This document shows, piece after piece, positions 2,650 to 24,039 of a DNA stretch of 36,808 nucleotides. Made by a program: the position numbers and the translations under genes. Below the pieces are notes generated by a model that ran no database searches, was not told the origin of the DNA, and saw nothing but the letters and a program-made list of their open reading frames with translations. The DNA comes from Selenomonadaceae bacterium (lineage in GTDB: Bacteria; Bacillota; Negativicutes; Selenomonadales; Selenomonadaceae), in NCBI GenBank assembly GCA_017554235.1, contig JAFZIV010000057.1:1-36808 (forward strand), given 5' to 3'. Each line of letters starts with the position of its first letter. Within the stretch, counting starts at the first letter, position 1.

Positions 2650-3303
2650 TAAGTTTGGGAATTTTTGCCCGTAAAATGCAGGAACCGATAGAAATGATAA
2701 TTCCTGCGGAGTAGATTTAGGAGAAATCCATTTGATAGCGGCGTTTGAAAGTGAAGGAAAAGCAGTAATAATAACGGGACGCTATCTTCGCTCAATAAAA
2801 CAGTATCAGCTGAAAAAACTTGCAGAATTTGACCGTAAATTGTCGAAATGTAAAATAATTCCCGCCGCTATAAAAAATTGAGACGAGCAAAAAGAAGAAT
2901 GTTGCAGAAAACCAATGCACAGATACAAGATTTAAATCACAAGATAACACGAGCATTTGTAAAATGGGTATTGGAAAATAAAATATCGAAAGTGTATGTT
3001 GGCAATCCGGAAGGAGTACAGCGTAAGAAAAAAGGTAAAAAAGTGAATCAAAAGCTGTCGCGTTGGAATTTCGGGGTACACTTAAAATATTTGGAATATA
3101 AGCTTGCGGAAGTAGGAATAAAATTGGAAAAAAACAACGAAGCCTACTCAACGCAAACGTGTCCGCAATATGGAAGGCGGCATAAATGTAGCGGTAGGAA
3201 TAGAGATGTACACGGAGCGCGAAATATTTTAAGTTTGGGATTAAATCAAAGAATTTGCATAACGACAAAAATAAAAGAAACAAAGTATCTACGGACAGCG
3301 TAA
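2650..3303 (+). pseudogene. tnpB: tnpB remnant (IS200/IS605 RNA-guided nuclease), 5'-truncated and frameshifted
   Basis: Translated fragments match TnpB in order: QEPIEMIIPAE, a frame change near 2703, then RuvC-I as CGVDLGEIHLIAAFESEGKA and GRYLRSIKQYQLKKLAEF. A second frame change lies near 2875. The rest follows as RRAKRRMLQKTNAQIQDLNH, RuvC-II KVYVGNPEGVQ, the SRWNFG segment, EAYSTQTCPQYGRRH and the RuvC-III region DVHGARNI. The N-terminal half (over 100 residues before RuvC-I) is missing. The zinc finger is damaged: the second Cys of the first CxxC is Tyr, and the second CxxC block is deleted between SGRN and RDVHG. The 5' break coincides with the left end of the IscB element, which suggests that IscB insertion or a later deletion cut it. 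Non-functional as a nuclease. Confidence 0.88.
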
Positions 3304-9120: not shown

Positions 9121-9395
9121 GTCAGCAACCTCACGCATAAAAGCGGGGGCTTGTGTGAAATTTAGAACAAGCTCTTACTGACTAGCCTTAGTCTTCACTG
9201 ACTATGTTACTTGCGAAAATATAGGTACCGGCGGACGTTAATCCTAATCTGCCGCTCTACGGTTTATGGTTAAATAGTTCTAAGGGGTAGGAACAGTGCT
9301 GTAAGCATACAAAACCGCAGGATAACTTTGGCGAAGGATTATTACGCTAGCGGGCGGCGGCTTTATCAGCATTTATGCCCGCTCGCCTTCGGGCG
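9121..9395 (+). ncRNA. Orphan omega RNA (HEARO) copy B
   Basis: Shares the core GCATACAAAACCGCAGGATA plus ACTTTGGCGAAGGATTAT with copy A and the block ATAGGTACCGGCGGACGT with copy C. Hairpins seen: GCTTGT/ACAAGC, CGGCGGA/TCTGCCG, GTTCT/AGGAAC. Where copy A has the iscB ribosome-binding site, this copy has a closing stem AGCGGGC (9349-9355) with GCCCGCT (9377-9383), then a CGCC-TTCG-GGCG tetraloop hairpin (9384-9395). No nuclease gene is attached. The RNA could act with an IscB made elsewhere, or be inert. No convincing promoter is visible directly upstream. Confidence 0.8.
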
Positions 9396-9463
9396 AAATT
9401 TAATTCAAAGGAGGGAAGCGCGTTTCCTCCCCACAGCTAAAAGGGGGTATCCACCGCGCATAT
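9121..9463 (+). mobile_element. IscB-less derivative of the IscB element, copy B
   Basis: Carries an omega RNA scaffold at the left and the same right-end sequence as copy A (CCCACAGCTAAA, GGGGGTATCC, CCGCGCATAT at 9429-9463) but no iscB reading frame in between. It is therefore a non-autonomous, RNA-only copy. Its right boundary lies directly against the murG start codon. Confidence 0.7.
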
Positions 9464-9468
9464 GTGTG

Positions 9469-10560
9469 ATGAGAATAATTTTTTCAGGCGGCGGCACGGG
9501 CGGACACATTTACCCCGCACTGACTTTGATTGATACGATTAAAAATAAATTACCCGATACAGAATTTTTATACGTCGGTACTGAAAAAGGTTTAGAATCT
9601 GACATTGTACCGAAGGCAGGAATAAATTTTTCTGCCATGAAACTTGAAGGCGGACTTGAACGCCATTTTACGTTGGAAAATTTTAAACGAGCGGCTGACG
9701 CAATCTTAAGCATTCGCCGCGCAGGTAAAATTATCAAAGAATTTAAGCCTGACGTAGTTGTAGGTACGGGCGGCTATGTTTGCGGACCGATTCTACTTGC
9801 CGCAAGTCTGAAAAAAATTCCTACGCTGATTCAAGAGCAAAATGCCGTTGCGGGTATTACGAATAAAATTTTGTCGAAGTTTGTTACAAAAATTGCAGTA
9901 GGTTCAACTTTGGCTTTAAAGAATTTTCCAGCCGCTAAAACAATTTATACTGGCAATCCTATTCGTACAAAAGTTTTGACGGCTAAACGTGAAGACGGTT
10001 TACGAGAATTTAATTTCACGGCGGACAAGTCTGTTGTTTTAATTTCCGGTGGCAGTCGCGGCGCAAGAAGTATTAACAATGCAATGGTTGAAGTTTTAAA
10101 GCGGGCTAAAGATTTTGACGCGCAATTTCTTCACGTGACGGGCAAAGGCGAATACGAATCAGTTACGGAAAATTTGGGCGACGATTTACCGCCTAATGTC
10201 AGAGTTGTACCTTATCTTTACAATATGCCGCAAGCTATGGCGATGGCAGATTTAGCGATATTCCGTGCAGGTGCAACGGGCTTGGCAGAATTAACTGCGC
10301 GGGGAGTGCCTTCAATCTTAATTCCTTATCCATACGCGGCGGAAAATCATCAAGAGTTTAACGCAATGGAACTTGTTAAAGTTGGCGCGGCGCGAATGAT
10401 TTTGAACAAAGACTTAAACGCAGAAATTTTATCCGCACAGATTGATGAGCTTTTAAAAAATCCTGACGAGTTACAAAAAATGTCTGCCGCAAGTTTATCA
10501 ATCGGCAGACCGCAAGCCGCTGATGAAATAGCTGATTTAATTCTCGACTTGAAAAATTAG
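9469..10560 (+). CDS. murG: UDP-N-acetylglucosamine--lipid pyrophosphoryl-MurNAc-pentapeptide transferase MurG
   Basis: Adds GlcNAc to lipid I to form lipid II on the inner face of the membrane. It is 363 residues, the expected size. Motifs are the N-terminal glycine loop FSGGGTGGHIYPAL, GTGGYVCGPILLAA, LIQEQNAVAGITNKIL, ISGGSRGARSINNA and the UDP-GlcNAc site region RAGATGLAELTARGVPSILI with PYPYAAENHQEFNA. I start at ATG 9469 (GTG 9466 is also possible) because MRIIFSGGG is the normal N-terminus; the frame stays open back to 9328 only because it runs through the omega RNA element. No Shine-Dalgarno is visible within 15 bp. It stands outside the usual division/cell-wall cluster. Confidence 0.96.
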   Translation: MRIIFSGGGTGGHIYPALTLIDTIKNKLPDTEFLYVGTEKGLESDIVPKAGINFSAMKLEGGLERHFTLENFKRAADAILSIRRAGKIIKEFKPDVVVGTGGYVCGPILLAASLKKIPTLIQEQNAVAGITNKILSKFVTKIAVGSTLALKNFPAAKTIYTGNPIRTKVLTAKREDGLREFNFTADKSVVLISGGSRGARSINNAMVEVLKRAKDFDAQFLHVTGKGEYESVTENLGDDLPPNVRVVPYLYNMPQAMAMADLAIFRAGATGLAELTARGVPSILIPYPYAAENHQEFNAMELVKVGAARMILNKDLNAEILSAQIDELLKNPDELQKMSAASLSIGRPQAADEIADLILDLKN

Positions 10561-22260: not shown

Positions 22261-23378
22261 TATGGGCGTTGATGCTCATTCCAATTTTTCATCCACTCTT
22301 CCATATTTCGACGTACCTTGCTCCATAAAATTTCAGGATCATTGTATACCGCCTTGCAGTAGCTGATACACTTTCCGCCAATTAATTTTCCTACGACTTC
22401 GCTCAACGTACTGATTGCCATACGTACGACAACAATTATAATTATAGAAATTTTGAATCCCAACACGGTTATGGCAATGCCACCGAAAAGTGGTAACAAG
22501 AAAACCATTGTAAGTTTTATCGCGATGAAAGAAAATATTACGCCGATTGTACCCTTGCCTATGCGTAAAAAAAGTTGCGCGTGTTTCCTACAAAAAGTAC
22601 AGATTTCACGGAAGGCTTTTTGCGGGTGACGAATCATCAGCCATAAAAATTTCCCCGTCCTCTGCGCGTAGTACTGTAGAAATTCGCCCAGTTTTTGTAG
22701 CAATTTATTAATGTCCGTCGGAATACTCGTAACAGTTGCCATAACTGCTTGAAAGCTAAATTCCGTGACAGCTCCGCGCAGTGATCCGAGTGCGTTTCCT
22801 AAAAAGGCAGGAGCTTTACCGACTGCGCCGGTTACTGAATCCGGCAATGGTAAAGCGGGGATGAATGCCGCGATAACGTAAAGCGTGATTGCTAATATGC
22901 GACCGATAATCATCGCTATAAAAAATTTTATGACAGCTTTAGGATTGCGTCTGAAGGCTTGCGGGAAACGTCTAATTCTTTTAGGAAGTTTGTTAATAAG
23001 CGTGATGAAAAGTTTATCACCGGCACTTGGAAATTTTTCTATGCCAACATCGGGAGGAAATTCCATTTTGAGTTTATTTTCTTCTTCTAATTTATGCGAA
23101 AGATGAATCATTTTTTGGAATGCGTTGGATATAGCCGTTTCGCCCGCCTTTTCCAATCTGTCACGTTCGGCATCAAAAGAGCGAGTCTGTTGCATCATTG
23201 CCGCGAATTGTTGCGCTATAGCCTTTTGTTTTTCGTCGCCATCAACTTTTTTTGTCGTGTCCATTATCTGCATTAAACGGTTAGCCATTTGACGCTGATG
23301 GTTATCATTATCGCCCGCCTTCGTCGCGTGAATCATACGTTGAAAATTTTTTGAAAGCTTATCATTCTCCTCACTCAT
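22260..23378 (-). CDS. Membrane protein of unknown function with repeated N-terminal motif
   Basis: 372 residues; family not recognised. The N-terminal third is hydrophilic and holds four related segments about 27-35 residues apart: KNFQRMIHATKAG, ANRLMQIMDTTKK, AQQFAAMMQQTRS and NAFQKMIHLSHKL, a pattern of hydrophobic-xx-M-hydrophobic-xx-T/S that could form a helical bundle. A proline- and arginine-rich stretch (NKLPKRIRRFPQAFRRNPKA) leads to membrane segments at about 145-170 and 285-335 (IGVIFSFIAIKLTMVFLLPL). The C-terminus is charged and ends near EEWMKNWNEHQRP. I choose ATG 23378, with GGTGGTG about 6 bp upstream, over the GTG at 23390. It is convergent with the P60 gene and divergent from the omega-RNA/tRNA unit. 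Confidence 0.75.
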   Translation of the reverse strand: MSEENDKLSKNFQRMIHATKAGDNDNHQRQMANRLMQIMDTTKKVDGDEKQKAIAQQFAAMMQQTRSFDAERDRLEKAGETAISNAFQKMIHLSHKLEEENKLKMEFPPDVGIEKFPSAGDKLFITLINKLPKRIRRFPQAFRRNPKAVIKFFIAMIIGRILAITLYVIAAFIPALPLPDSVTGAVGKAPAFLGNALGSLRGAVTEFSFQAVMATVTSIPTDINKLLQKLGEFLQYYAQRTGKFLWLMIRHPQKAFREICTFCRKHAQLFLRIGKGTIGVIFSFIAIKLTMVFLLPLFGGIAITVLGFKISIIIIVVVRMAISTLSEVVGKLIGGKCISYCKAVYNDPEILWSKVRRNMEEWMKNWNEHQRP

Positions 23379-23541
23379 TTTTATCACCACCGAATTAGCT
23401 TTTGCTAAGTTTACGGTAGAAATTTTGAACTGTCAATCAGCCGCAAAAATTTTTCTTGACATAAAAAGTTTTAACGTTTATAATGCGCAATGTCGAAAGA
23501 CAAAGGTACTTAAGCCTTAATTGGTTAGAGTACTTCGGTTA
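23379..23541. other. Intergenic leader before omega RNA copy C
   Basis: Contains the strong plus-strand promoter at 23456-23484 and roughly 50 nt of predicted leader, including GTACT (near 23507) and AGTAC (near 23529), which could form a small hairpin. No gene is visible. Confidence 0.5.
23456..23484 (+). promoter_or_regulatory. Consensus promoter driving omega RNA copy C and two tRNA-Val
   Basis: Perfect TTGACA (23456-23461), 17-bp spacer, perfect TATAAT (23479-23484). No promoter or terminator of similar quality is seen before the terminator at 24016. Confidence 0.85.
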
Positions 23542-23810
23542 GTGACCCAACACTTTTTGTGTGAACTTGTAAGAGTTCTTGCTGACTAGCCTAAGTCTTT
23601 ACTGACTACGTTACTTGCGAAAATATAGGTACCGGCGGACGTAAATCCTAATCTGCCGCTCTACGGCTTGTGGTTAAAAGTTCTGATGGGTAGGAACGGT
23701 GTTGCAAGCAAATAAAACCGCAGGATAACATTGGCGAAGGATTTTTACCCTAGCGGGTGGGGATCTGCTTTATGTTAGCAGATATTTAAGCCCGCTCGTC
23801 TTAGGACGAT
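23542..23810 (+). ncRNA. Orphan omega RNA (HEARO) copy C
   Basis: Matches copy B closely (GACTAGCC, ACTGACTACGTTACTTGCG, ATAGGTACCGGCGGACGT, AACCGCAGGATAAC, TTGGCGAAGGAT) and has the same compensatory hairpins: GAACT (23563-23567)/AGTTC (23574-23578) and GTTCT/AGGAAC. The closing arm AGCGGG (23752-23757)/CCCGCT (23791-23796) encloses ATCTGCT/AGCAGAT, and a CGTC-TTAG-GACG hairpin ends it, as in copy B. A TTTATGTTAG inside the arm equals the start region of iscB in copy A, perhaps a relic of the deleted gene. No right-end sequence and no nuclease gene follow; tRNA-Val begins 13 bp later. Confidence 0.8.
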
Positions 23811-23822
23811 ATAAAATAATAT

Positions 23823-23896
23823 GGGATTATAGATCAGTTGGTTAGATCGTTTCGTTGACATCGAAAAGGGCACAAGTTCGAGTCTTGTTAATCCCA
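23823..23896 (+). tRNA. tRNA-Val(GAC)
   Basis: 74 nt cloverleaf: acceptor GGGATTA/TAATCCC, D-stem GATC/GATC, anticodon arm TTTCG-TTGACAT-CGAAA (anticodon GAC), T-stem ACAAG/CTTGT with TTCGAGT loop, discriminator A. No encoded CCA. The D-stem and T-stem are less GC-rich than usual, but all pairs form. Confidence 0.85.
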
Positions 23897-23911
23897 TTAT
23901 TTTAATTTTCG

Positions 23912-23984
23912 GCTCATTTAGCGCAGTTGGTAGCGCATCTCCGTCACATGGAGGGGGTCGGGGGTTCGAATCCCTCAATGAGCA
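23912..23984 (+). tRNA. tRNA-Val(CAC)
   Basis: 73 nt cloverleaf: acceptor GCTCATT/AATGAGC, D-stem GCGC/GCGC, anticodon arm TCTCC-GTCACAT-GGAGG with T33 and anticodon CAC, T-stem GGGGG/CCCTC with TTCGAAT loop, discriminator A. No encoded CCA. It lies 15 bp after tRNA-Val(GAC). Confidence 0.82.
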
Positions 23985-24015
23985 CATTTAATTTTCTAAG
24001 TAAAATATATAAACG

Positions 24016-24039
24016 TCGTCGCAATGGCGGCGATTTTTT
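24016..24039 (+). terminator. Terminator of the omega RNA/tRNA-Val unit
   Basis: TCGTCGC (24016-24022) pairs with GCGGCGA (24027-24033, one G-U) and is followed by six T. Confidence 0.75.

Follow-up and report, generated by a model that had tools for sequence, protein, structure and literature searches.

A stand-alone IscB-type omega RNA within a tRNA-Val operon of a Selenomonadaceae bacterium, with a putative guide of tRNA-Val sequence

The DNA examined, hereafter the window, is a 36,808-nt contig of a 2.27 Mb draft genome of a Selenomonadaceae bacterium, 94% complete. On its plus strand, a putative sigma-70 promoter (23456 to 23484), with TTGACA and TATAAT matching the consensus at 12 of 12 positions across a spacer of 17, heads a tRNA-Val operon. 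There follow a remnant 5' half left from an earlier tRNA-Val(GAC) gene (23505 to 23537), an IscB-type omega RNA of the HEARO family (23538 to 23748), a set of 3' hairpins (23749 to 23809, the end being approximate), a complete tRNA-Val(GAC) (23822 to 23897; 70.6 bits), tRNA-Val(CAC) (23912 to 23985; 63.1 bits), and a terminator-like hairpin (24014 to 24032) that runs on into a stretch of T. The last of these comes from a terminator scan that found 6 such sites against 1.5 expected. A sequence-only reading had described a promoter, an IscB-type guide RNA, the two tRNA genes, and a terminator as one unit, and all of these parts were recovered in that arrangement.

Comparison with the genus indicates that the promoter is the tRNA operon's own, since relatives without HEARO keep a promoter of the same kind in the same place. 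Between positions 22800 and 24300, it is the sole promoter-like site on the plus strand. The promoter scan of both strands, with three sites against 3.6 in shuffled sequences, is by itself no proof; the proof is the presence of the promoter in relatives. In 45 of the 47 genomes in which our script found tRNA-Val(GAC), its spacing from the -10 box could be measured; it is 19 to 70 nt in 44 relatives (19 to 43 nt in 43 of them), and 338 nt in the window. Because the tRNAs are separated from their conserved promoter by the omega RNA, and no second plus-strand promoter was found in the scanned interval, the tRNA transcript should traverse the omega RNA. RNase P cleavage near 23823 would then release the 3' side of the omega RNA. 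As anatomy, the claim that the omega RNA is embedded in a tRNA transcription unit stands; its reading as a sign of domestication is taken up below.

The omega RNA matches the HEARO model RF02033 over model positions 1 to 211 of 211, with 104.3 bits against a gathering score of 83 (E 1.2e-20). The hairpins downstream of it, CCTAGCGGG...CCCGCT and CGTC-TTAG-GACG, are shared with other copies in the same genome and belong to an IscB-less form of the element. Directly 3' of these lie the tRNA genes and no IscB frame, so this is a stand-alone copy. The genome contains 24 HEARO matches, of which, by reading, 15 carry the IscB-less 3' module and 6 an IscB start module; the IscB-less state is therefore ordinary here. 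Of the five RRXRR matches in the genome, two are full-length IscB frames with both RRXRR and HNH, their active-site residues judged by eye; they lie away from this copy. No Y1 transposase was found in the genome.

Other such elements, or pieces of them, occur in the genome. On the minus strand of the window, 1147 to 2649 holds a HEARO copy and then an IscB gene disrupted by stops or frame changes; near it, on the opposite (plus) strand, 3082 to 3228 encodes a fragment of a TnpB C-terminal domain (PF07282). Elsewhere in the genome, the 5' flank of one HEARO (L010, G000:C58:84435-84712) ends in a CRISPR-type repeat, GTGGATTGAAAC, so that its guide would be partly repeat sequence. Another (L024, G000:C65:16972-17228) has, in place of IscB, what looks like the beginning of a TnpB frame after it, truncated where the contig stops.

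The stretch between promoter and omega RNA starts 20 nt after the -10 box, the usual start position of the tRNA. Its last 17 nt are identical (17 of 17) to tRNA-Val(GAC) of genome G011 (locus L033), which, together with G002, is the nearest relative by MurG (87%). In IscB-type elements the 5' flank supplies the guide, presumably here the last 16 nt of the half (23522 to 23537), if we take the length of 16 from the IscB literature. This presumed guide matches tRNA-Val(GAC) of G011, G002, and G025 at 16 of 16 positions. The position of the remnant at the usual promoter distance, with its 17-nt identity to a relative's tRNA, leads to the conclusion that the insertion took place where the anticodon loop begins on its 5' side and that the guide of the window's omega RNA, read from its sequence, is tRNA-Val sequence. 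The sequence-only reading had the parts right and overlooked both the tRNA-derived guide and the doubled tRNA 5' half. One might instead suppose that the omega RNA sits in an ordinary leader and that the tRNA-like stretch arose by chance, a view to which the first 16 nt of the remnant, which resemble tRNA poorly, lend some colour. However, the identical 17 nt stand directly before the insertion motif and at the usual tRNA start distance, and in blastn searches query positions 6 to 98 aligned with promoter and tRNA in several relatives. On the strength of remnant identity and promoter spacing we reject a chance position of the omega RNA, and we regard accidental placement as scarcely credible. 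The first 16 nt have diverged from the tRNA and are now predicted to pair with the guide.

The break, located by comparing the remnant with relatives, falls at CTTCG/TTGACAT, and the element thus inserted before the TTGACA now found at 23855 to 23860. The tRNA 5' half joined to the sequence from TTGACA onward makes up a complete tRNA-Val(GAC). The site can be compared with those of 13 other IscB-less copies in the genome, namely the 15 less the copy in the tRNA operon and one cut by a contig end. By reading, ATGA or GTGA stands directly after 12 of these 13, often as a start codon and commonly with a Shine-Dalgarno-like stretch before it; the lone exception precedes a gene read as hfq. The window's IscB-less copy next to murG, whose ATG is at 9469, follows the rule, and no IscB-less module was found in the 80 nt before murG in 21 relatives. 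Judged from these sequences, the TTGA site in the tRNA gene fits the same pattern. In the tRNA-operon copy, the tRNA 5' half stands where the module would otherwise end. The copy before murG (9121 to 9468) and many other IscB-less HEARO copies of this genome end flush before ATGA or GTGA starts, with a Shine-Dalgarno-like stretch and a hairpin, as if these ends were replacements for a displaced ribosome site.

Downstream of the element, the 5' part of the complete tRNA-Val(GAC), up to 23854, repeats the half at 23505 to 23537 but departs from the guide at four neighbouring positions. The 94% complete assembly yielded no other full tRNA-Val(GAC). A complete gene beyond the element would also be explained had a second tRNA-Val(GAC) already stood downstream when the first copy was hit, the piece between being deleted and nothing restored. 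This account leads to the same end product and differs from our preferred one, in which the tRNA was restored, in history only; we hold it to be very unlikely, as we noticed no tandem GAC pair among the tRNA-Val operons of the genus that were compared.

The complete tRNA-Val(GAC) is also unusually diverged. Set against the nearest relative's tRNA it shows 12 differences in 73 positions, where no two of ten relatives' variants differ from each other at more than 11; tRNA-Val(CAC) differs from its nearest at 5 of 72, with relatives differing among themselves by up to 15. Nearest identity is 83.8% for tRNA-Val(GAC) versus 93.2 to 100% for the other five tRNAs of the window, a comparison for which Glu and Lys contributed a small number of loci (8 and 9). 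Private changes of the window's tRNA, however, fall at 2 of 16 positions inside the guide footprint and 7 of 57 outside it (Fisher p 1.0). Selection for escape focused on the guide is therefore unsupported.

The remnant also has a notable predicted fold. Positions 23502 to 23537 form a predicted hairpin of -13.2 kcal/mol, versus -2.6 for the corresponding half of a relative, and predicted pairing is near 1 at most guide positions. Among the 33 5' flanks definable by a start-motif rule in 50 HEARO loci, this guide hairpin ranks first, with a z-score of -4.43 against -1.88 for the next. Random, shuffled, or mutated left halves folded equally well in 0.001 to 0.003 of trials, in a test picked after the hairpin had been noticed. 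According to these models, the old tRNA half can fold over the guide and hide it.

These observations bear on a reading in which the element still acts, by the logic of a cleave-and-rescue drive. The omega RNA, with IscB supplied from elsewhere, would cut unmodified tRNA-Val(GAC) alleles on incoming DNA or element-free chromosomes, the complete tRNA being immune through its mismatches. The guide does have no mismatches to the tRNA of close relatives versus the four to its own, the omega RNA scores above the gathering score, two full-length IscB frames with both domains are encoded in the genome, and tRNA-Val(GAC) is the most diverged of the window's six tRNAs. Against such activity stand a guide predicted to be paired at most of its positions and private tRNA changes that show no focus on it, and we consider this explanation unlikely.

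The arrangement is rare. A search with the whole unit through 66 genomes of the genus, including the window's own, gave some match in 61, with several tRNA operons cut by contig ends; among roughly 9 to 10 candidate matches scored per genome, HEARO next to tRNA was found in one genome of the 66, that of the window. A general partnership of HEARO with tRNA genes was rejected as well. When 50 loci (of 59 HEARO places) were run through ARAGORN with flanks of up to 1.5 kb, a tRNA stood beside the window copy alone. A further 35 loci, assigned by an 18-base HEARO pattern alone and some of them in distant hosts, had no tRNA within 1.5 kb, the nearest being about 1.7 kb away. Scans of genomes and viral contigs, from which records very near the window were possibly left out, found no match to the junction. 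In the literature searched, which leaves most subscription journals outside, we recognised no account of a tRNA gene or operon with an omega RNA in it.

At up to three mismatches the guide matches nine places in its own genome, itself included, versus ten for a reversed control; the best two besides the guide itself have two mismatches each, none is perfect, and in none of the eight other places does NTGA follow the match. The sequence-only reading had suggested domestication, for which the IscB-less state seemed a sign. With the arrangement in one of 66 genomes, a guide that may be locked in a hairpin, four mismatches to the adjoining tRNA, and no NTGA after any of the other matches, this suggestion is not supported, and with 15 IscB-less copies of 24 the lack of IscB is ordinary here. 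The element might be thought a domesticated regulator, in which omega RNA and hairpin leader set the output of tRNA-Val or guide IscB to bind without cutting; it does sit in the operon under the operon's promoter, and two other members of the genus have TnpB-type guide RNAs in the same operon (see below). Yet the locus is not conserved among relatives, the arrangement standing in one of 66 genomes, and its own genome offers no perfect target besides the guide itself; we think this quite improbable.

In the two genus members just mentioned, a different structured RNA lies between tRNA-Val(GAC) and tRNA-Val(CAC). The gap between these tRNAs, 7 to 21 nt in 38 of the 44 genomes measured, is 177 nt in G086 (L126, G086:C39:50200-51100) and 193 nt in G077 (L127, G077:C21:38500-39400). 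We take this RNA to be a TnpB-type omega RNA because the window genome has a TnpB frame (L168) whose 3' end overlaps a related RNA, and stand-alone copies occur too. In G086 its 3' flank, the guide, consists of 15 nt of tRNA-Val(GAC); in G077 the flank is 13 nt of tRNA-Val(CAC). Both flanks directly abut the start of tRNA-Val(CAC), with no base between. TCAC precedes the guide match in both tRNAs, and is also found 10 to 11 nt before the left-end hairpin in seven of eight stand-alone copies of this RNA; that hairpin and an adjoining promoter-like stretch, recognized by eye, are absent from both operon copies. In G086 a single mismatch separates the tRNA from its guide, a TTCGACT loop absent from the other nine variants; the G077 target matches its guide perfectly. 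The G077 RNA is 83% like the G086 operon RNA and 86% like another G086 copy elsewhere, a hint of separate origins. Inside or just after the tRNA-Val operon in four further genomes (L064 in G012, L066 in G022, L063 in G023, L048 in G026), short pieces end in TGGATTGAAAC (GGATTGAAAT in L048) and are followed by a duplicated tRNA-Val 3' end. From their sequence, these pieces resemble either a solitary CRISPR-type repeat whose spacer comes from tRNA or the end of another guide RNA. A wider view, which we offer as a doubtful conjecture, would make the tRNA-Val operon of the genus a recurrent seat of IscB- and TnpB-type guide RNAs with tRNA-derived guides freed by tRNA processing, the tRNA gene being target and a complete, partly recoded tRNA the rescue.

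For the window, we think it rather probable that an insertion was survived through restoration of the tRNA and later tamed. The sequence itself shows the insertion point, the source of the guide, the complete tRNA, the capacity for a hairpin, and the mismatches; the order of events, transcription, processing, and silencing are what we infer. An IscB-less HEARO inserted into tRNA-Val(GAC) immediately ahead of TTGA, on the 5' side of the anticodon loop, and the 5' flanking sequence, as expected of an IscB-type element, became a tRNA-Val guide. The cell could have survived because a complete tRNA-Val(GAC) stands beyond the element. That tRNA may have come about when a copy of the 5' half was joined to the original 3' half, or from a former tandem copy with the intervening piece deleted. 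The omega RNA would be made from the tRNA promoter as a long leader of the tRNA transcript and be removed by RNase P. In a later taming, the old half would have evolved pairing with the guide while the working tRNA diverged away from the guide match. The element has probably been silenced. It is one of many IscB-less omega RNA copies, ordinary in kind, and unusual in its tRNA-gene site, in the complete tRNA adjoining it, and in the masking of its guide.

With known HEARO or IscB omega RNAs (RF02033; the OMEGA systems) the element shares its RNA family, a guide taken from the 5' flank, and the existence of stand-alone IscB-less copies. It differs in that its target is a tRNA gene, present again complete beside the element, and in that the remainder of the tRNA half masks the guide. 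Engineered polycistronic tRNA-gRNA units place a guide RNA within a tRNA transcript, and cleave-and-rescue drives direct a guide at an essential gene while supplying a version of that gene that resists it; unlike either, the present case is a natural sequence, and any activity is putative. Type V-K CRISPR-associated transposons, as described in PMC8730458, home with a transposase by means of a delocalized crRNA whose tRNA-matching guide adjoins that tRNA gene. The likeness lies in a guide RNA with a tRNA-matching guide near the matched gene, whereas here the RNA is of IscB type, lies inside the tRNA gene, and has no Y1 transposase that we could find. In PMC11870625, TnpB is described as acting in plasmids as the gene drive of insertion sequences, with activity shown. 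There too the guide keeps a record of where the element inserted and is directed at alleles that lack it, but the present element is of IscB type, sits in a chromosomal tRNA, and has a masked guide and a putative activity. IStrons (PMC4227781) and group I introns in tRNA genes are likewise mobile RNA elements made tolerable within genes; those splice out, while in the present case we propose no splicing, a complete tRNA being present to one side.

The locus suggests a route by which an RNA-guided mobile element may enter an essential tRNA gene, one with no second copy in the assembly, without killing the cell: the guide is retained, a complete tRNA adjoins it, and the guide is finally masked and mismatched. 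Should any such guide RNA prove active, it would give a parallel in nature to two engineered designs, guides released from tRNAs and rescue copies that have been recoded, and the role of stand-alone omega RNAs would become directly testable.
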